A stretch of 64,000 nucleotides of DNA, taken from Streptomyces sp. ISL-10. Its GTDB lineage: Bacteria; Actinomycetota; Actinomycetes; Streptomycetales; Streptomycetaceae. Positions 51,324 through 60,346 of the stretch are shown here, piece after piece. Numbering within the stretch: the stretch's first letter is position 1; each line of letters begins with the position of its first letter. Below the pieces are notes generated by a model. It had not been told where the DNA came from, did not search any database, and worked only from the letters and a program-made list of their open reading frames with translations. The stretch spans positions 496,001 through 560,000 of the forward strand of contig NZ_JAGGOJ010000011.1 in the NCBI RefSeq assembly GCF_018614575.1. Reading direction: 5' to 3'. The position numbers and the translations under genes are program-made.

Positions 51324-52127
51324 TCAGGGCTCCCAGTCCCGTGCGGCGAGGTCGAGCGTGCGCTGTGCGGCCGCCACGACCGCCGCATCGACGAACCGTC
51401 CGTCCGGCAGGGCCATCGCGCCCTCGTCCTCGGCGGCCGCCTTCACGATCTCCTCGGCGGCTTCGATCTCCTGCGGAGTCGGCCGGTAGGCGCGCTCGAT
51501 GACCGGCAGCTGACGGGGATGGATGGCCGCGCGGCCGAGGAAGCCGATGGAGCGGCCGTGGGCGCACGACGCGTGCAGCGCGTCGAGGTCGAGGATGTCG
51601 GGGAACACGGACTGCGTCGGCGGCGCCAGCCCGGCCGCACGGGCCGCGACCACCGTGCGGGTGCGCGGCCAGTCGAGACCGGTGTCGCCGCGCACGCCCA
51701 GGTCGGCGCGGAGATCGGACTCGCCGAGGGCGATGCCTCGGACGGCGTTGTGGGCGGTGGCGATGGCGTAAGCGTGCTCGACCGCGAGCGCCGACTCCAG
51801 CAGCGCGTACAAGGGGACGCCCGGTGCCGCGGCCGCGATCTGCTGAATGTCAGTGGCGTATGCGACCTTGGGAACACGCAGCGCTGTCAGACCTGGCAGC
51901 CCTGTGAGGGTCTCGATGTCCAGGGGGGAGTTGATGCGGACATGGACCGGCAGGGGCAGGTGGGAGGAGAGCAGTTCGGCCGTGGCGGCAAGAGCGTATT
52001 CCTTGCGGCCCTGGGCCACCGCGTCCTCGAGGTCGACGATGACGACGTCGGCGCCGGAGGCAATGGCCTTGTGCACGACGTCGGGGCGGTCACCGGGGGC
52101 ATAGAGCCAGGTCAGGGGGAAGGTCAT
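51324..52127 (-). CDS. CitE-like CoA-ester lyase (HpcH/HpaI aldolase family)
   Basis: 267 residues, TIM barrel. The family start is WLYAPGDRPDVVHKAIASGADVVIVDLEDAV, with metal and CoA residues in VHVRINSP, LLESALAVEHA and ALGESDLRADLG. No citD or citF is nearby, so it is not citrate lyase; stand-alone members cleave malyl-, citramalyl- or related CoA esters. ATG 52127 has GAAGGAG upstream and overlaps the CoA-transferase stop by 4 bp. Last gene of the seven-gene operon. Confidence 0.9.
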   Translation of the reverse strand: MTFPLTWLYAPGDRPDVVHKAIASGADVVIVDLEDAVAQGRKEYALAATAELLSSHLPLPVHVRINSPLDIETLTGLPGLTALRVPKVAYATDIQQIAAAAPGVPLYALLESALAVEHAYAIATAHNAVRGIALGESDLRADLGVRGDTGLDWPRTRTVVAARAAGLAPPTQSVFPDILDLDALHASCAHGRSIGFLGRAAIHPRQLPVIERAYRPTPQEIEAAEEIVKAAAEDEGAMALPDGRFVDAAVVAAAQRTLDLAARDWEP

Positions 52128-53338
52128 AGAGCTCCTTCGGTGCGCAGTGCGGCGATGTCGGCCGGGGTGAGACCCAGTTCGGAGAGCACCTCTTCGGTGT
52201 CGGCGCCGTGCGGGCGGCCGGCCCAGCGGATGGCGCCAGGAGTCTCGGAGAGCCGGAAGAGGACGTTCTGCATGCGCAGCGGGCCCAGCTCGGGGTCGGG
52301 GACCTCGGTGATCGTCCCGAGCGCCTGGTACTGGGGGTCGGCGACGATGTCGCGGACGTCGTAGACCGGAGCGATCGCCGCCTCGGCTTTTTCGAACGCG
52401 GCCACGGCGTCGGTGCGGGTGTGCTGTGCGATCCATCCGCCGACCGCCTCGTCGAGCAGGTCGGCGTGCTCGGCGCGGCCGTGGCCGGTGGCGAACCAGG
52501 GCTCGTCGATCAGCTCGGGGCGGCCGACCAGGTGCATCACCCGTTCGGCGACGGACTGGGCGGAGGTGGAGACGGCGAGCCAACTGCCGTCGGCCGTGCG
52601 GTAGATGTTGCGGGGAGCGTTGTTGCGGGACCGGTTGCCGGTGCGCGGCTGGACGTAGCCGAGCTGGTCGTACCAGAGCAGTTGCGGTCCGAGTACGGCG
52701 AGGATGGGTTCGATGATCGCCATGTCGACCACCTGGCCCCGGCCGGTGGTGGTGCGGGCGGCGAGCGCGGTCATCACGGCGTAGGCGGTGGCGAGCGCGG
52801 CGACGGAGTCGGCGAGACCGAAGGGCGGCAGGGTGGGCGGGCCTTCGGGCTCGCCGGTGGCGGCGGCGAATCCGCTCATCGCCTCCGCGAGCGTCCCGAA
52901 CCCGGGCCGCTGCGAGTACGGCCCGAACTGGCCGAAGCCCGTGATCCGGGTGAGGACGAGACGGGGGTTGGCCGCGCTCAGCTCCTCCCAGCCGAGGCCC
53001 CACTTCTCCAGGGTGCCCGGGCGGAAGTTCTCGACGACCACGTCGGCCGTCGTCGCGAGGCGCAGCAGCGTGGCCCGGCCGCCGGGTGTGGACAGATCGA
53101 GGGTGACATTGCGCTTGTTGCGGCCGAGGACCTTCCACCACAGCCCGACGCCGTCCTTGGCGGGCCCGTGGCCGCGGGACGGATCGGGGCGGGTGGGGTG
53201 CTCGACCTTGATGACCTCGGCGCCGAAGTCGCCGAGCAGGGTGGCGCACAGCGGACCGGCGAAGAGGGTCGCGAGGTCGAGGACGCGGAGTCCGGTCAGG
53301 GGGGCGGGCGGGGTGTCCGGCGTGGGAGAGGGGGTCAT
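52124..53338 (-). CDS. CaiB/BaiF (class III) CoA-transferase
   Basis: 404 residues. The start LRVLDLATLFAGPLCATLLGDFGAEVIKVE and the later VENFRPGTLEKWGL are diagnostic; the catalytic Asp is in PFGLADSVAAL. It moves CoA between carboxylic acids and could activate the substrate of the adjacent CitE-like lyase. It overlaps both neighbours by 4 bp. Confidence 0.92.
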   Translation of the reverse strand: MTPSPTPDTPPAPLTGLRVLDLATLFAGPLCATLLGDFGAEVIKVEHPTRPDPSRGHGPAKDGVGLWWKVLGRNKRNVTLDLSTPGGRATLLRLATTADVVVENFRPGTLEKWGLGWEELSAANPRLVLTRITGFGQFGPYSQRPGFGTLAEAMSGFAAATGEPEGPPTLPPFGLADSVAALATAYAVMTALAARTTTGRGQVVDMAIIEPILAVLGPQLLWYDQLGYVQPRTGNRSRNNAPRNIYRTADGSWLAVSTSAQSVAERVMHLVGRPELIDEPWFATGHGRAEHADLLDEAVGGWIAQHTRTDAVAAFEKAEAAIAPVYDVRDIVADPQYQALGTITEVPDPELGPLRMQNVLFRLSETPGAIRWAGRPHGADTEEVLSELGLTPADIAALRTEGAL

Positions 53339-54222
53339 GAGGCGGCGTCGATCTCGGGGCGGTAGGGCATGGAGGTGGACGCTCCTGGGCGTTGGACGGA
53401 CAGGGCGGCGGCGGTGGAGGCCCACGCCAGGGCCTCGGGGACCGGTTTTCCTTCCCCGAGGGCGACGGCGAGGGTGCCGACGAAGGTGTCGCCGGCCGCG
53501 GTGGTGTCCACGGCGGCGACCTGGGGTGCGGGCACGGTGACGGGTTCGGTGTCGCGGGCGGCGTACAGACAGCCCGCGGCGCCGAGGGTGATGACGACTT
53601 CGGGGACCTGTCGCAGCAGGGCTTCGGCCGCGCCGTGCGGGTCGGCGACTCCGGTGAGGGTGGCCGCCTCGTGCTCGTTGGGGACCAGCAGGCCGGTGAC
53701 GGCGAGGAGTTCGGGCGGCAGTGGCTGCGCGGGAGAGGGGGTGAGCACGGTGCGTACGGCATGCCGGTGAGCGGCCTCGGCGCCGTTGAGCACGGCGCTG
53801 AGCGGCAGTTCGAGCTGTAGCAGGAGGAGGTCGGCGGTGGCGATGAGGGCTTCGTCGCCGGGTGACAGACCGGTCACGGTGCCGTTGGCGCCGGGGATGA
53901 CGACGATGGAGTTCCCGCCCTCGTCGTCGACGACGATGTGCGCGGTGCCGGAGGGGCCTTCCGCGGTGCGCAGCAGATCGGTGTCGACGCCCGACGCGTC
54001 GAGGGTGTGACGGAGCACGGCGCCGAAGTCGTCGGACCCCACGGCGCCGATCATGGTGACGTCACCGCCCGCGCGGGCGGCGGCCACGGCCTGGTTCGCG
54101 CCCTTGCCACCGGGGACCGTACGGAACTCCCGTCCCGTGACGGTCTCTCCGCGCTCGGGGGCGTGCGCGACATAGGCGACGAGGTCCATGTTGGTGCTGC
54201 CGAGCACCACGATGCCGGTCAT
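53335..54222 (-). CDS. rbsK: Ribokinase-type PfkB sugar/nucleoside kinase
   Basis: 295 residues. VVLGSTNMDLV start, PGGKGANQAVAAARAGG substrate signature and DTTAAGDTFVGTLA with the catalytic Asp are typical of ribokinase. It likely phosphorylates free ribose or a ribose-containing product. Overlaps of 4 bp on each side tie it to the ADP-ribosylglycohydrolase genes. A nucleoside kinase of the same family is an alternative. Confidence 0.9.
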   Translation of the reverse strand: MTGIVVLGSTNMDLVAYVAHAPERGETVTGREFRTVPGGKGANQAVAAARAGGDVTMIGAVGSDDFGAVLRHTLDASGVDTDLLRTAEGPSGTAHIVVDDEGGNSIVVIPGANGTVTGLSPGDEALIATADLLLLQLELPLSAVLNGAEAAHRHAVRTVLTPSPAQPLPPELLAVTGLLVPNEHEAATLTGVADPHGAAEALLRQVPEVVITLGAAGCLYAARDTEPVTVPAPQVAAVDTTAAGDTFVGTLAVALGEGKPVPEALAWASTAAALSVQRPGASTSMPYRPEIDAAS

Positions 54223-55841
54223 GGGCGGAGTGCCTCCTTCAGCGTGAGACGGGCCAGGGTGTCGAAGCCGGCGCCGTCGAATCCGGCGACGGAGGTGGAC
54301 AGCCGGTTCTTCAGCGGGGCCGTCCAGTGGTCCGGCAGCCTCCCGGGGTGGCCGGCCAGCAGCCCGGCGAGCGAACCGGCCGTCGCACCGCCCGAGTCGG
54401 TGTCGAGCCCGCCGGAGACGGCACGGCAGACGGTGCCGGTGAAGTCGCCGTCGGCATGGGTGAGTGCGGCGGCGAGCAGGGCGGCGTTGGGCAGGGCGTG
54501 CACCCAGTGGTACGCGCCGTAGGCGGCGTGCACGCGGTCGACGGCGCGGTCGAAGTCGGCCTCCGAGCGGGCCGCTTCGACGCCGAAGCGTACGGCGCGG
54601 GCGAGGCGGGAGCCGGTCGGTACGACGGTCAGGCCGGTGGCGATCGCCTCGTGCACATCGGTGGTGCCGCCGGCCGCCGTCGCGATGGCGCCGGCGGTGA
54701 ACATCGCGCTGTAGACGCCGTTCGCGGTGTGGGTGAGCACGGCGTCGCGGTAAGCCTGCTCGGCCGCGGCGGCCGGATCGCCGGGGTTGGTCCAGCCGTG
54801 CAGGTCGGCCCGGATCGAGGCGCCGATCCATTCGCGGAAGGGGTTGCGATGGGTGGCGGTGAGCGGGGGCTCGATGCCGGAGAGGAGGTTGCGGTAGGCG
54901 ATGCGTTCGGCGGTGAAGGTCCGCCCGGCGGGGAGTTCGTCCAGCCACAGGGCGCCGACCTGCGCTGTGGTGAACGCACGGCCGTGGCGCTGGAGGAGGA
55001 CGAGGGCGAGGAGGGGATAGTTCAGGTCGTCGTCCTCGGGCATGCCGTCGATGTTCTCGGCGAGCGACGTGGCTGCGCTGCGCCGGTTCCACGGGTGGGC
55101 GGCGGCGAGTTCGGCAGGCAGGCCCTTGGCCGTGAAGTAGGCGGTGGGGGGCCAGTTCCCGGTGGCGCGGCCGATGGCGCGGATGGCCTGGAGGGGCAGC
55201 TTCTCGACGGGCTTGCCGAGCAGGCACCCGACGGCACGGCCGAGCCATGCGGCATGCAGGGCGTGCAGCAGGGACTCGTCAGGGGGCCGGGACGCGCCGG
55301 GAATGCGCCCCTCGGGCCCGGCGGCCGCGAGCCGCGTGCCGTGAGCGTGGACATCCGGTTCCCACTGCGGGGAATGCGGCTCCGCGGGCGACGACAGGCG
55401 TTCGGCGGGCGCCGGGTCGCCCGGACGGCCGTGTGCGACGGCCGGCGCCGACCGCACGGCGCTCGCGGCAGGGGGCGCGCTGTCCCGGGCCCCGGGGCCC
55501 GGGTCGGCGGCCGGGGCCCGGTGGCGGTCAGGGCCGTGCCGCGGGGGCGACGGCCACTGAGGGCAGGCCGCGACGATCGACGGCCAGTCCGTCGGCTCGT
55601 CGGCTGCCAACGGGGAGGACAGCGCGGCCAGTTCGTCGAGCAGCTCTTCGGCGAGCGCCCGCAGCTCCGGGCGCGGCGGATCCGGGGAAGCGCCCGCGCG
55701 GGGCGGGGCGTATCTGCCGCCGGCGGCCAGCCAGCGGTCGCGCACGGCCGTAGCGTCGCGGCCGTCCTGCTCCGCCTGCCGGAGCTCGTGGCCGACGAGG
55801 TCCTCCGGCTGCACCCAGGTCAGGCGCAACAGGCTGGTCAT
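54219..55841 (-). CDS. ADP-ribosylglycohydrolase-family protein 1 (with N-terminal extension)
   Basis: 540 residues. The first ~200, including a Pro/Ala-rich linker, are an extension outside the family core. The core then has LGRAVGCLLGKPVEKL (the usual Asp replaced by Cys), PEDDDLNYPLL (acidic metal site) and GGLDTDSGGATAGSLAG (C-terminal Asp pair). The metal ligands differ from classic DraG/ARH enzymes, so a distinct substrate is likely. It starts at ATG 55841, overlapping the next paralogue by ATGA. Confidence 0.87.
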   Translation of the reverse strand: MTSLLRLTWVQPEDLVGHELRQAEQDGRDATAVRDRWLAAGGRYAPPRAGASPDPPRPELRALAEELLDELAALSSPLAADEPTDWPSIVAACPQWPSPPRHGPDRHRAPAADPGPGARDSAPPAASAVRSAPAVAHGRPGDPAPAERLSSPAEPHSPQWEPDVHAHGTRLAAAGPEGRIPGASRPPDESLLHALHAAWLGRAVGCLLGKPVEKLPLQAIRAIGRATGNWPPTAYFTAKGLPAELAAAHPWNRRSAATSLAENIDGMPEDDDLNYPLLALVLLQRHGRAFTTAQVGALWLDELPAGRTFTAERIAYRNLLSGIEPPLTATHRNPFREWIGASIRADLHGWTNPGDPAAAAEQAYRDAVLTHTANGVYSAMFTAGAIATAAGGTTDVHEAIATGLTVVPTGSRLARAVRFGVEAARSEADFDRAVDRVHAAYGAYHWVHALPNAALLAAALTHADGDFTGTVCRAVSGGLDTDSGGATAGSLAGLLAGHPGRLPDHWTAPLKNRLSTSVAGFDGAGFDTLARLTLKEALRP

Positions 55842-57064
55842 CGGGCGTCCGTCAGCTCGGCGAACGCCGCCTCGTGGGCGCGGCGGCGCGCCAGGTCCCG
55901 GGCGTGGATCTCCCGCGCCACGGCCGTCAGCTCCACGGCGGGCGCGCGCAGATCGACCCGGCTCGCCTCGGCAACCCGCTCCGTCCACTCCTGCGGTACG
56001 GCCCCCTCGCCGTGCAGGGCTCCCACGATCGCTCCGGCCATCGTCGCGATCGAGTCGCAGTCGCGCCCGTAGTTGACGCAGGACAGGACCGTACGCCGGA
56101 AGTCGCCGTCACCGACCAGCAGCATGCCGAGGGCGATGGGCAACTCCTCGATCGAGTGCAGTCGCGAGGGCCGCCGCGCCCCCAGCGACGGGGCGCGGTA
56201 GTCGGGACCGACCGTGTCGAACGGTGCCACCGCGGCCCGCAGCGGGCCGAGCGCGGACTCGAAGTCCGAGTGATGGGCGGCCGCTTCGGCGACGGCCTCG
56301 ATCGCGGCCTGTGTGCCGTCCTTGGCGAGGGCGAGCGCCGCGTCCACCACGGTGGCGGGCGTCGACTGAGGAAGGCAGGCCGCGGCGACCGCCGCCGCGA
56401 AGACGCCGGCCGCCTCGCGGCCGTACGAGGACTGGTGCGCGCCGGCGATGTCGAGGGCCTCGTGGTACGCGGCCGTCGGGTCGGCGGCGTTGACGAGGCC
56501 GACCGGTGCCATGTACATCGCGGCACCGCAGTTGACGATGTTGCCGACGCCCGCCTCGCGCGGGTCGTTGTGCCCGTAGTACAGGCGGTGGACGATCCAC
56601 TTCTCGGCCAGGAAGACCCGGTGCAGGGGGAGGGCCTCTGCCTCCAGTTCGGGGATCCAGCGGGTGTTGGAGATCAGGTCCGGGACGAGGTGGTCGGCGA
56701 CGGCGTAGGCGTCCAGATGGTCGCGGACGGTGGCGTAGACGCGGACCAGGGCATGGGTCATCAACGTGTCGTCGGTGATGTGGCCGTTGCCCTTGTGGTA
56801 AGGGGCGAGCGGGCGCGCGGTGCGCCATTCGTCGCCGTTCCAGGGGCCGACGATGCCTTCGACGCGGCCGCCGTGCCGCTCGACGATCTGTTCCGGTGTG
56901 TAGCCCTCGACGGGGCCGCCGAGAGCGTCGCCGACGGCGGCGCCCACGAGGCTGCCCCGGAAGCGGTCGTCGAGTGAGGGGGGCGGGGGAGTCGTACGCT
57001 CTGCCGTCGACGTGTTCGTCGTGCTCGCCGCGCTCGCCGCCGTGTTCGCCGTCGCTGTCGTCAT
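55838..57064 (-). CDS. ADP-ribosylglycohydrolase-family protein 2
   Basis: 408 residues. A Thr/Ala-rich N-terminus is followed by the classical core: GAAVGDALGGPVEGY, GHITDDTLMTHAL and NYGRDCDSIATMAGAI. All three acidic metal-binding motifs are intact, so it is probably an active hydrolase of an N- or O-ribosyl bond. ATG 57064. The 75-bp gap to paralogue 3 is the only non-overlapping junction in the operon. Confidence 0.9.
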   Translation of the reverse strand: MTTATANTAASAASTTNTSTAERTTPPPPSLDDRFRGSLVGAAVGDALGGPVEGYTPEQIVERHGGRVEGIVGPWNGDEWRTARPLAPYHKGNGHITDDTLMTHALVRVYATVRDHLDAYAVADHLVPDLISNTRWIPELEAEALPLHRVFLAEKWIVHRLYYGHNDPREAGVGNIVNCGAAMYMAPVGLVNAADPTAAYHEALDIAGAHQSSYGREAAGVFAAAVAAACLPQSTPATVVDAALALAKDGTQAAIEAVAEAAAHHSDFESALGPLRAAVAPFDTVGPDYRAPSLGARRPSRLHSIEELPIALGMLLVGDGDFRRTVLSCVNYGRDCDSIATMAGAIVGALHGEGAVPQEWTERVAEASRVDLRAPAVELTAVAREIHARDLARRRAHEAAFAELTDAR

Positions 57065-57139: not shown

Positions 57140-58351
57140 CTACAGCGTGTCCGCGAGCAGGCCGGCGAGGTCGACGAGGTCCGTCCCGGCGAGATGGGGC
57201 AGGGCGCAGCCCGCGAGGATGCGGCAGGACTCGCGCCAGGTGCCGGGCACGGCGTCGCCGCCGCCGAGGACGCCGGTCAGCGCGCCGGCCAGCGCGGGCG
57301 CGGAGTCGGCGACCCGGGAGAGACACGCGGCCGCGGGCACCGCCTCGGCGACCCGGCCGCGGGCGGCGATGGTGACGGCGAGTGCGATGGGGACGGTCTC
57401 GGCTGCGGCGATGCCGTAGCTGTACACGTGGTCGACGATCTGATGCTCCAGCAGGGGCACAAGCTCGAACGCCCCTTCGGCGCCGCGGGCGAGTGCGACG
57501 GCGTGGCGCGCGTTGCGGCCGATCTCCGTGGACTCGGGAAGCTGGGCCAGTGCGGTCTCGACGGTGTCGTCGACGGACGCGCCGCCGAGCGCCGCGGCCA
57601 CGGCGGCGGCCATGGCACGCGCGCCGTGCACTCCGTCGCCGTCCTGGGTGTAGCGGGCGTCGAACTCGGCGAGTTCGGCGGCCGCGGCCGGGTCGCCGGG
57701 ATGCACGACGGCGAGTACGGCGGCCCGTACGCAGGCCGCGTCGTCGAAGTAGTGCGGATTGTCGTGGCCGGTGGCGGGCGGGCGCAGCCCGGTCGCGAGG
57801 TTGCCCAGTCCGGCGCGTACGGAGATGCGGGCGCGCAGGGGGAGCACGGCGGACTCGACCTCGGGGGCGCGGTCGGCGGCCGCGGCGACCTGGCTGGCGA
57901 GGGAGTTCCAGGCCAGGTCCACGGCGGCGCGCACCCGGCGGCCGGGTGCGAGGCCGCGGAAGTGGTCGCCGGAGGCGGTGAGCACGGTCCCGGCGGCGAA
58001 CGCGGCCCACTCGGCGTCGTCGGACGGACCGAGCCGGAGGGGTTCCGGGGGCTGGTTGAGGGCGATGGGCACGGGGAGGGTGGTGGTGGCGTTGTGCTCG
58101 GCGAAGGTGTCGAGCTCCCGGGTGAGCCGCCGGGTCCACTCGGGCATGCGGCCGGCGCGATGCCGCGCGGCGGGCCAGCCGGCGGCGTCGCCTGCGGCGA
58201 GCCCGAGCAGCAGCCCCTCGACCGCCCGTTCCGGGCCCGGTGGCGTCGCCTTCGTACGGGCAGGAGGCCCGGCCCCGGTCTCCTGGGGCGGGGGCGCGTG
58301 GGGAGGGGTCGCGTCGGTCGTGGGCAGGCCCTCGGGGGGTGGGGGCGTCAT
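57140..58351 (-). CDS. ADP-ribosylglycohydrolase-family protein 3 (divergent)
   Basis: 403 residues. The core start LLLGLAAGDAAGWP is present and an acidic SDDAEWAAF replaces TDDT. The C-terminal Asp-x-Asp site is degraded to SRVADSAPALAGAL. It may be catalytically altered or a binding paralogue. The first 45 residues are Pro-rich. ATG 58351 overlaps paralogue 4 by 4 bp. Confidence 0.85.
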   Translation of the reverse strand: MTPPPPEGLPTTDATPPHAPPPQETGAGPPARTKATPPGPERAVEGLLLGLAAGDAAGWPAARHRAGRMPEWTRRLTRELDTFAEHNATTTLPVPIALNQPPEPLRLGPSDDAEWAAFAAGTVLTASGDHFRGLAPGRRVRAAVDLAWNSLASQVAAAADRAPEVESAVLPLRARISVRAGLGNLATGLRPPATGHDNPHYFDDAACVRAAVLAVVHPGDPAAAAELAEFDARYTQDGDGVHGARAMAAAVAAALGGASVDDTVETALAQLPESTEIGRNARHAVALARGAEGAFELVPLLEHQIVDHVYSYGIAAAETVPIALAVTIAARGRVAEAVPAAACLSRVADSAPALAGALTGVLGGGDAVPGTWRESCRILAGCALPHLAGTDLVDLAGLLADTL

Positions 58352-59400
58352 CGCGGGATGGGGGTCAGGAGCGTGGCCACGTCCAGGACGTGGTGGCCGC
58401 GCATCGACGGGAGGCAGCTGCCGCGGACCGGGCCGATCGCCGACGCCCATGCGTCCGGGATCGCCCGCGCCCCGGACACCGCTCCCGACAGCGCCCCCGC
58501 CACCGCCGCGGTCGTGTCCGCGTCGCGGCCCATGTTCACCGCCGTGAGCACCGAGCCGCGGAAGTCTCCGCGGGCCGCCGCGAACGCGCCGAAGGCCAGA
58601 CCCACCGCCTCCGGTGCCAGGTCCGTCCAGGGATAGCCGCCGATCACCACGGTCGAGCGGATCGCGCGTTCCATGGTGAGGACGTCCGGGTAGGCGCGGC
58701 CCGCCGCCACCACCGCGCGGCGCATCGAGCGGGCCGTCCACGAGTCCATCGGCACCACCGACAGCGCCGCGCCGATCACCCCGGCCGGCCCCGCGCCGCC
58801 CATCGCCGCCGCGACCCCGGCCGCGACCGCGCGGCCGCCGTAGATGCCCTCGCCGTCGTGGCTGACGCTGCCGTCGATCGTCACCAGCCGGGCTGCCTCC
58901 TCCGGCTGCCCGGCCGCGAAGACGCCGAACGGGGCCGCCCGCATCGCCAGGCCGTCGCTCCATGCGTGCCGGTGCTGCGCCGAGATCGGGGCGGCGAGGC
59001 CGCGGCGGAGGTTCTCCAGCGTGCCGCGCTCGCTGAAGCCCGCGCCGCGGAAGGGGCCCTCGTCCAGGTCCGCGATCCACTCGTGCCACGCCGACTCGAC
59101 ATGCGCGACGGTCAGCTTTGAACCGTGCCGGGCGAGGAGCAGGCCCGAGAAGATCGCGTACTCGGTGTCGTCCGTCCCCGCGGGATCGTCGCTGACGAAG
59201 CCCTCGATACGGCCCCAGCGGCGGCGGATCTCGGAGGGCCGCAGGTTCTCGGCGGGCGCGCCGAGCGCGTCGCCGACCGCGAGGCCGAGCAGCGCGCCCC
59301 TCGCCCGGTCGTGGACGTCCGCGGCGCGGGGGAGGGCGTCGGCGGCGGGCGTCCGTTCCCCGGACGCCGAGGCTGTGGACGTCTCGGTCAGCAACTCCAT
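58348..59400 (-). CDS. ADP-ribosylglycohydrolase-family protein 4 (first gene of operon)
   Basis: 350 residues with an intact core: GLAVGDALGAPAENL, GTDDTEYAIFS and NMGRDADTTAAVAGAL, matching the dinuclear metal site of DraG/ARH hydrolases. It is promoter-proximal; a LacI-like palindrome lies 69 bp upstream of its ATG (59400). It probably carries a principal activity of the pathway. Confidence 0.91.
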   Translation of the reverse strand: MELLTETSTASASGERTPAADALPRAADVHDRARGALLGLAVGDALGAPAENLRPSEIRRRWGRIEGFVSDDPAGTDDTEYAIFSGLLLARHGSKLTVAHVESAWHEWIADLDEGPFRGAGFSERGTLENLRRGLAAPISAQHRHAWSDGLAMRAAPFGVFAAGQPEEAARLVTIDGSVSHDGEGIYGGRAVAAGVAAAMGGAGPAGVIGAALSVVPMDSWTARSMRRAVVAAGRAYPDVLTMERAIRSTVVIGGYPWTDLAPEAVGLAFGAFAAARGDFRGSVLTAVNMGRDADTTAAVAGALSGAVSGARAIPDAWASAIGPVRGSCLPSMRGHHVLDVATLLTPIPR

Positions 59401-59468
59401 GAGGGGCCCTTTCGCGCGCGCGAGCCTGTTCCCGGATATGTGCCACGCGCCGCCCGCGAAACAGCCAA

Positions 59469-59480
59469 AGAAACGTTTCT
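59469..59480. promoter_or_regulatory. LacI-family operator-like palindrome
   Basis: AGAAACGTTTCT is a perfect 12-bp palindrome with the central CG step typical of LacI/RbsR-type operators. It lies in the 217-bp divergent gap between the ADP-ribosylglycohydrolase operon and the VIT gene. Confidence 0.7.
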
Positions 59481-59617
59481 GTCACCCGGCTCGCTGCACC
59501 GCTCCCTGGTAGGTAAGTACGGCCTGCCTTGCTGGCGCGCCCCTTACGTGGTGCGTATTTTCGAGGGATCGAGGGGGAGCGGGCCCGCCGGGTGCCGCTG
59601 CTGGAAAGGGGATAGCT

Positions 59618-60346
59618 GTGTCCATCATCGAAACCGAGGCCGCGCTTCACGAGGCGCACCGTGACAACCACACCCACCGTGATGTGAACGGCGGCTGGCT
59701 GCGCCCTGCGGTGTTCGGTGCGATGGACGGGCTCGTTTCCAACCTCGCCCTGATGACCGGCGTTGCGGGCGGTGCCGTCTCGCCGCAGACCGTCGTGATC
59801 ACGGGACTGGCGGGACTCGCGGCCGGCGCGTTCTCCATGGCGGCGGGCGAGTACACCTCCGTCGCCTCGCAGCGCGAGCTCGTCCAAGCCGAACTGGACG
59901 TCGAGCGGCGGGAGTTGCGCAAGCACCCGGTGGACGAGATGGAGGAGCTCGCCGCGCTCTACGTCGCCCGTGGCGTCGAGCCCCCGCTCGCCCGTGAGGT
60001 GGCCATGCAGCTCTCCCGGGATCCGGAGCAGGCGCTGGAGATCCACGCCCGCGAGGAGCTCGGCATCGATCCCGACGATCTGCCTTCGCCCGCCGTCGCC
60101 GCCGTCTCCTCCTTCGGTTCGTTCGCGCTCGGCGCGCTGCTGCCGGTCCTGCCGTACCTCCTGGGCGCCACCGCCCTGTGGCCGGCCGTGCTGCTCGCCC
60201 TGGTCGGTCTTTTCGCCTGCGGCGCGCTGGTGGCCAGGGTCACGGCTCGCAGCTGGTGGTTCAGCGGGCTGCGTCAGTTCGCGCTGGGCGGGGCCGCGGC
60301 GGCCGTCACGTACGGTCTGGGCATGCTCATCGGCGCCGCCGTCTGA
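59618..60346 (+). CDS. VIT1/CCC1-family iron/manganese transporter
   Basis: 242 residues. Signature FGAMDGLVSNLALMTGVAGG begins helix 1; GLAAGAFSMAAGEYTSVASQRE ends helix 2, and a cytosolic Glu-rich metal-binding domain (about 88-150) follows. Three helices complete the fold. It moves Fe2+ or Mn2+ out of the cytoplasm. GTG 59618 has GGAAAGGGG upstream. A weak iron-box-like sequence is at 59509-59527. Confidence 0.9.
   Translation: MSIIETEAALHEAHRDNHTHRDVNGGWLRPAVFGAMDGLVSNLALMTGVAGGAVSPQTVVITGLAGLAAGAFSMAAGEYTSVASQRELVQAELDVERRELRKHPVDEMEELAALYVARGVEPPLAREVAMQLSRDPEQALEIHAREELGIDPDDLPSPAVAAVSSFGSFALGALLPVLPYLLGATALWPAVLLALVGLFACGALVARVTARSWWFSGLRQFALGGAAAAVTYGLGMLIGAAV

Follow-up and report, generated by a model that had tools for sequence, protein, structure and literature searches.

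Operators of the RbsR, PurR and CytR type, to which regulators of the LacI family bind, are built from AAACG half-sites. In Streptomyces coelicolor, the genes SCO2028-SCO2030, which encode DraG-like hydrolases, presumably belong to the same operon as the one described here, with a gene order near gltB and trp. SCO2028 and SCO2030 have no detectable activity on U-alpha-ADPr in the accessible parts of two sources (PMC5087735, PMC13036486), the first of which also counts seven uncharacterized DraG homologues in S. coelicolor. In Escherichia coli, the yegTUV operon encodes a predicted ADP-ribosylglycohydrolase and a sugar kinase; it is controlled by the repressor GgaR/YegW with ADP-glucose as effector and, in the accessible part of the source, is this regulator’s single target in the genome (PMC10819704). 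Streptomyces offers many ADP-ribosylglycohydrolase-like proteins without known substrates, and we found no paper, judged by titles and the beginnings of abstracts, on a LacI-linked operon of this enzyme family in actinobacteria.

The window analysed here is a stretch of 64 kb (C3:496001-560000) from a genome of 7.83 Mb. On its minus strand lies an operon whose first four genes encode ADP-ribosylglycohydrolase family (ARG) proteins with PF03747, namely ARG1 (58348..59400; E 1.8e-56), ARG2 (57140..58348; E 6.5e-34), ARG3 (55838..57064; E 2.6e-52) and ARG4 (54219..55838, start not fixed; E 1.5e-41). The PfkB kinase that follows (53335..54222, minus strand; PF00294) scores 311.6 bits against TIGR02152, above the cut-off of 299.65, and is the ribokinase that a first-pass annotation of this DNA had placed in the operon. 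A class III CoA-transferase (52124..53338, minus strand; PF02515, E 1.8e-124) and an HpcH/CitE-type lyase (51324..52130, minus strand; PF03328), whose nearest NCBIfam model, RipC (NF038242), stays below its cut-off, come next. On the plus strand, a divergent VIT1-family gene (59618..60346; PF01988, E 2.6e-70) directly adjoins the ARG promoter.

The divergent region between the ATG of ARG1 (59400) and the GTG of the VIT1-family gene (59618) carries, at 59469-59480, an exact match to AGAAACGTTTCT. This is, as first described, a perfect 12-bp palindrome with CG at its centre, and its even symmetry and AAACG-like half-sites are those of a LacI operator. It is the single match in the 64-kb window even when up to two mismatches are allowed; since 15 of 100 dinucleotide shuffles of the window contain at least one such match, the bare word is only mildly unusual. 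In the whole genome there are two exact copies, and the degenerate pattern KAAACGTTTM occurs at just those two places. The second copy (L001:1501-1512) falls in a prophage-like stretch, a short way upstream of a gene that matches the phage major tail protein family phrog_2491 (1.7e-29), a position that fits chance. Real operators of this form probably do exist in the genus, because GAAACGTTTC is commoner over 150 Streptomyces genomes than its reversed control (367 versus 137); at least five copies are present in 23 of the 150 genomes, and other regulons may use the GAAACGTTTC operator in some strains.

ARG1 loci were collected from at least 80 named Streptomyces loci and from 115 of 150 genomes of the genus, and the upstream comparison comprises 189 regions: the window, 80 named loci and 108 further genomes, with some genomes entered twice as identical rows in the two sets. 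Five genomes whose matches were short, split or cut (G080, G089, G113, G118 and G136), a second copy from G014 and L190, which gave no alignment, were left out. The neighbour across the upstream region is VIT1 in 179 regions, a solute-binding protein gene in eight and neither in two, one of the latter being G120, with lacI beside ARG1, and the other ending at a contig end.

Three blocks are conserved on the ARG1 side. The first, CGGGTGAC (59481..59488, minus strand; TGTCGACCGGGTGAY in many relatives), is conserved across Streptomyces, with CGGGTGAY present in 116 of the 189 regions, compared with 3.7 on average in shuffles. The second, TTGGCT (59463..59468, minus strand; nrGnCT in relatives), may be a -35 region and is modestly conserved, its four 3' columns holding 0.5-0.9 bits that are partly conditioned by the choice of rows. 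The third, GTGGCACATAT (59436..59446, minus strand), could be a -10 or start region, and its relatives’ form TGG[GC]ACA is found in 124/189 regions (shuffled mean 7.3). A scan of 59300-59700 gave no sigma-70 consensus pair and no terminator, and 59200-59900 contained no riboswitch or other known RNA. Exact TGTCGACCGGGTGAY occurs at 55 places in 53 of the 150 genomes, mostly once per genome; 37 of these places are in front of ARG1 and 18 are elsewhere, which rules it out as an element unique to ARG1, and the sole TGTCGACCGGGTGAY of the window’s genome (C33:784560) is not at ARG1. The CGGGTGAC/TGTCGACCGGGTGAY block is a candidate for the site of a single-target regulator or for an unusual promoter element; by eye, GGGTGAC was also considered as a direct repeat of the PhoP/GlnR type.

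On the VIT1 side, the imperfect dyad GGTAAGTACGGCCTGCCTTGCTGGC (59512..59536, plus strand) is strongly conserved, its parts GCCAGCAAGGMAGG and AGGCCGTACTTACC occurring in 87 and 74 of the 189 regions with a shuffled mean of 0. We take this dyad to resemble a DtxR-type iron box, a likeness that would fit iron control of the VIT1-family gene. Another 12-bp palindrome, ATTGCATGCAAT, present in 14 of 81 upstream regions, was rejected as an operator, as it corresponds to the IACN codons after the start. We note that it is a perfect palindrome in the first ARG1 codons of L010, L013, L040 and others, where it is probably coding and its symmetry is curious.

The first two ARG1-side blocks are separated by a variable spacer of 12 nt, and the palindrome occupies precisely this spacer. 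Since a MAFFT alignment of 81 upstream regions was too gappy, rows were instead anchored on CGGGTGA, and column statistics were taken from the 84 rows that remained of 113 anchored ones after redundancy was removed; these statistics are conditional on [CG]GGGTGA and in part on the two blocks downstream. In these rows the 12 spacer columns hold 0.04-0.80 bits each. Exact GAAACGTTTC is present in three of the 189 upstream regions (the window, S. xantholiticus (L005) and G128 (L094); shuffled mean 0.1), and 14 regions, these three included, have it with at most one mismatch (1.5 in shuffles). A tree of ARG1 with 110 rows groups the exact carriers in a single clade (SH-aLRT 98) and places the one-mismatch palindromes in its sister group and in a second Streptomyces group, with five label changes in all. 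Five or six of the six complementary pairs across the spacer are found in 6/84 rows, against about 1.4 by column shuffling; this excess and that of the one-mismatch sites are partly due to relatedness. Conservation upstream of orthologous operons, on which the first-pass annotation had staked its operator, has thus largely failed. We consider AGAAACGTTTCT to be, with a probability of roughly 0.55, a lineage-specific, non-operator spacer sequence between CGGGTGAC and nrGnCT rather than the operon’s conserved operator. What counts most against this reading is the position of the site: in 7.8 Mb there are just two KAAACGTTTM sites, and one of them is at this very operon; given that the same operon carries KAAACGTTTM elsewhere, chance would make this a notable coincidence.

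In the neighbouring clades, the left arm has diverged (AGAGAC, AGACAC, AGAAAG, AGGGAT), in contrast to a constant right arm, GTTTC, so that symmetry is not what is conserved there. Such a pattern, with GGGTGACAG and GTTTC retained and the nucleotides between them varying, is what would be seen if the conserved unit were the asymmetric GGGTGACAGnnnCGTTTCT, read by another regulator or a sigma factor, and if the palindrome were a by-product in the window’s clade. GTTTC at that spacing is missing in many other clades, however, and we regard this explanation as improbable. NrtR, considered because its effector is ADP-ribose and the operon encodes enzymes of this kind, was ruled out, as the mycobacterial motif published in the accessible part of the source, GTTTTCGA-N7-TCGAAAAC, differs (PMC6800001).

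Within the exact-carrier clade the picture is more favourable to function. In fact, all 12 palindrome columns are invariant in these three diverged genomes versus 59% of the columns outside the block (P about 0.002, uncorrected), and the longest invariant run in the three carriers’ non-coding region is the 20-nt CGGGTGACAGAAACGTTTCT. The site also lies upstream of the putative -35 block. These features would be expected of a live operator that is bound by a non-cognate LacI, one of the ten in this genome, and places the ARG operon under a sugar or nucleoside response. The rarity of such sites, two in the genome, points the same way, as does the core, which the window site has in common with the lacI-linked operators of this operon type; most relatives, on the other hand, lack the site.

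Those linked operators come from relatives in which the operon has its own LacI. Across the class, 35 of 197 genomes searched have ARG1; 21 of these lie outside Streptomyces, and 20 of the latter were used (G282 was left out). The LacI profile was built from seven of the ten LacI proteins of the window’s genome, with the helix-turn-helix recognised by pattern. Of the 20 non-Streptomyces loci, 19 have a LacI-family gene upstream of ARG1, and in 17 it is RbsR-like, on the ARG1 strand and about 3-4 kb upstream. In L220 and L221 it is divergent and adjacent and belongs to another LacI subfamily, and L222 has no LacI gene within the examined stretch. Four ARG relatives are present in 17/20 loci and are joined by ribokinase and CoA-transferase genes in 14/20, some loci being ended by contig ends. 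Within Streptomyces, a minority clade has the same arrangement, with a same-strand, RbsR-like lacI upstream of ARG1; among the 80 named loci, a LacI gene is present in one, L081 of Streptomyces sp. NBC_01306. The best model for this LacI is RbsR (NF047341; 193.8 bits, below the cut-off of 382). In L081 and L206, ABC permeases and a solute-binding protein are encoded between lacI and ARG1, with PF00528 detected for one permease in each and PF01547 in L081.

Operators accompany these genes. Of the 28 loci examined, 25 have KAAACGTTTM at a distance of up to 250 nt upstream of the LacI helix-turn-helix, whereas 100 shuffles gave 0.0. It is missing from L215, which has GAAGCGCTTC, and from L220 and L221, whose LacI proteins are 33-42% identical to the others compared. 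Several Streptomyces copies have tandem operator pairs, for example CTGTAAACGTTTCCAG and CTGGAAACGTTTACAG. LacI/RbsR-type control, as first proposed from the palindrome, is therefore borne out for the operon family by RbsR-like lacI genes, by AAACGTTT-type operators and by the sugar-ABC genes of L081 and L206; for the palindrome in this genome it is not supported, since the site is largely not conserved, a cognate LacI was not found and the matrix score is low.

This score derives from a symmetrised matrix of 35 lacI-linked sites. The pattern used to pick these sites requires K/M at +-5 and an AA..TT core, so that weaker ones, for example the first operator in L234, did not enter the matrix. 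The window site does not match this matrix: it scores 7.8 bits versus 12.8-30.1 for the 35 linked operators (median 26.1) and ranks second in the 64-kb window, where the best other site has 8.1 bits. When loci were held out one by one, one of the 35 sites fell below 7.8 (L215, the GCGC variant); when groups were held out, none of 15 (Streptomyces), none of 4 and none of 16 fell below the window site under the same matrix. The main departure is at positions +-6, where the window palindrome has A/T and all 35 collected sites have G/C. In 179 promoters that lack the lacI cassette, operator-like sites show no excess over shuffles (8 versus 7.3 at 6 bits, 4 versus 3.7 at 8 bits and 1 versus 1.7 at 10 bits).

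The genome encodes ten LacI domains, all on contigs other than the window’s, in agreement with the earlier statement that the window itself has no LacI gene. The accompanying proposal that the regulator is encoded elsewhere stands insofar as these ten genes exist; the cognate LacI was not found among them. A search at E <= 1e-70 over 150 Streptomyces genomes detected a relative of the ARG-linked LacI in eight (G014, G036, G046, G049, G058, G072, G104 and G120) and no ortholog in the window’s genome, and, in the best four of ten per query, the genome’s own LacI proteins are at most 40% identical to linked ones. RbsR is the best NCBIfam model, below cut-off, for five of the ten, which lends some support to a non-cognate LacI acting at the palindrome. 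A regulator with its own copy of the palindrome, the check suggested at the outset, did not emerge: the two exact copies are those already described, and no site within one mismatch was found in any of the ten lacI loci or, genome-wide, near them. Sites with two mismatches number three in these loci, where about 3.7 are expected, and the one nearest to a lacI, at L092, precedes the LacI domain by 146 nt. A AAACGTTT palindrome is absent from all ten lacI promoters; five have other central-CG palindromes, for example TGGGAGCGCTCTCA (L089), AGCAAGCGCTTTCT (L085) and TGACAACGTTGTCC (L086), and five have none by the criterion used. The best operator-matrix score at these promoters is 6.8 bits (L087). 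With this evidence on both sides, control of the ARG operon through the palindrome by one of the ten is in our view rather unlikely, and, as far as sequence comparison can tell, the palindrome most likely does not function as a LacI site in this genome. The LacI idea thus holds for the operon family but probably not for this particular site.

The history of the lacI cassette bears on whether the palindrome could be left over from it. In L081 and G058, lacI and the solute-binding protein gene occupy the place between VIT1 and ARG1 that is the promoter in the window, as would be expected if AGAAACGTTTCT were the core of an operator that remained after a former lacI-ABC-ARG operon lost its lacI. 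G120 (L238/L225) shows what looks like a decay stage of the lacI cassette: lacI, with one in-frame stop, lies directly beside ARG1, the solute-binding protein gene between them is absent, and one operator is kept and the other degraded. However, a tree of 51 chosen ARG1 proteins unites the nine Streptomyces rows that have the cassette, plus one that lacks it, in a clade (99) that is itself surrounded by cassette-less rows. The cassette group includes G120 and G119, the latter with a solute-binding protein gene but no lacI found in the examined stretch. G014 has both a cassette-bearing and a cassette-less copy, the second next to a gltB-like start as judged by eye. These relationships fit a genus that was cassette-less early on and later acquired the complete operon by exchange, but equally a series of several losses. 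In cassette-less lineages that branch more basally, the CGGGTGA-spacer promoters have no AAACGTTT in the spacer, so that the window palindrome appears derived rather than inherited. As, moreover, a second operator is absent at the window site and its flanks differ at +-6 from all collected sites, descent from a lost cassette seems to us very unlikely.

A derived palindrome could also mean that the window’s clade re-acquired a AAACGTTT operator and so brought the enzymes under a different LacI. Actinobacteria would then have a LacI-ruled operon for the import and breakdown of a ribosylated compound, with the order lacI (RbsR-like), two ABC permeases, solute-binding protein, four ARG genes, ribokinase, CoA-transferase and lyase, of which most Streptomyces would keep only the enzyme half, beside gltB. 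We hold this scenario to be doubtful.

With AGAAACGTTTCT read as spacer sequence, two modes of expression may be proposed. In the other actinobacteria and in one Streptomyces clade, LacI would keep its own promoter, and with it the entire operon, repressed; an imported ribosyl or sugar-like compound would end the repression by binding to LacI. In the window’s genome, a short local promoter formed by the conserved blocks would drive the enzyme genes in the absence of that LacI, and the enzymes may act on compounds made inside the cell. The conserved blocks CGGGTGAC, TTGGCT and GTGGCACAT are predicted to matter for expression, whereas a change in the palindrome is predicted to have little effect. 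Because relatives link LacI, transporter genes and ribokinase to it, the four-paralog set would seem to serve the catabolism of an imported ribosylated compound rather than, or in addition to, protein de-ADP-ribosylation. An inducer of the LacI makes the question of substrates testable. In this respect the LacI-ABC-ARG regulon of the relatives is a more useful result than the palindrome itself, which serves as a caution that a textbook LacI-like word can stand at the right operon without the regulator.

Compared with operators of the RbsR, PurR and CytR type, the window palindrome has the same central CG and the core AAACGTTT, and the LacI of L081 matches best to RbsR; it differs in having A/T at +-6 and no partner lacI found in the genome. 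For SCO2028-SCO2030 of S. coelicolor, the accessible parts of the cited work treat the enzymes and not how the operon is regulated (PMC5087735, PMC13036486). To yegTUV of E. coli, as far as the accessible part of its source describes it, the likeness lies in the union of an ADP-ribosylglycohydrolase and a sugar kinase in one repressor-ruled operon (PMC10819704). That system uses a GntR-family repressor, a putative nucleoside transporter of the MFS type and one ARG gene, whereas the actinobacterial form combines a LacI, ABC-transporter genes and four ARG genes.
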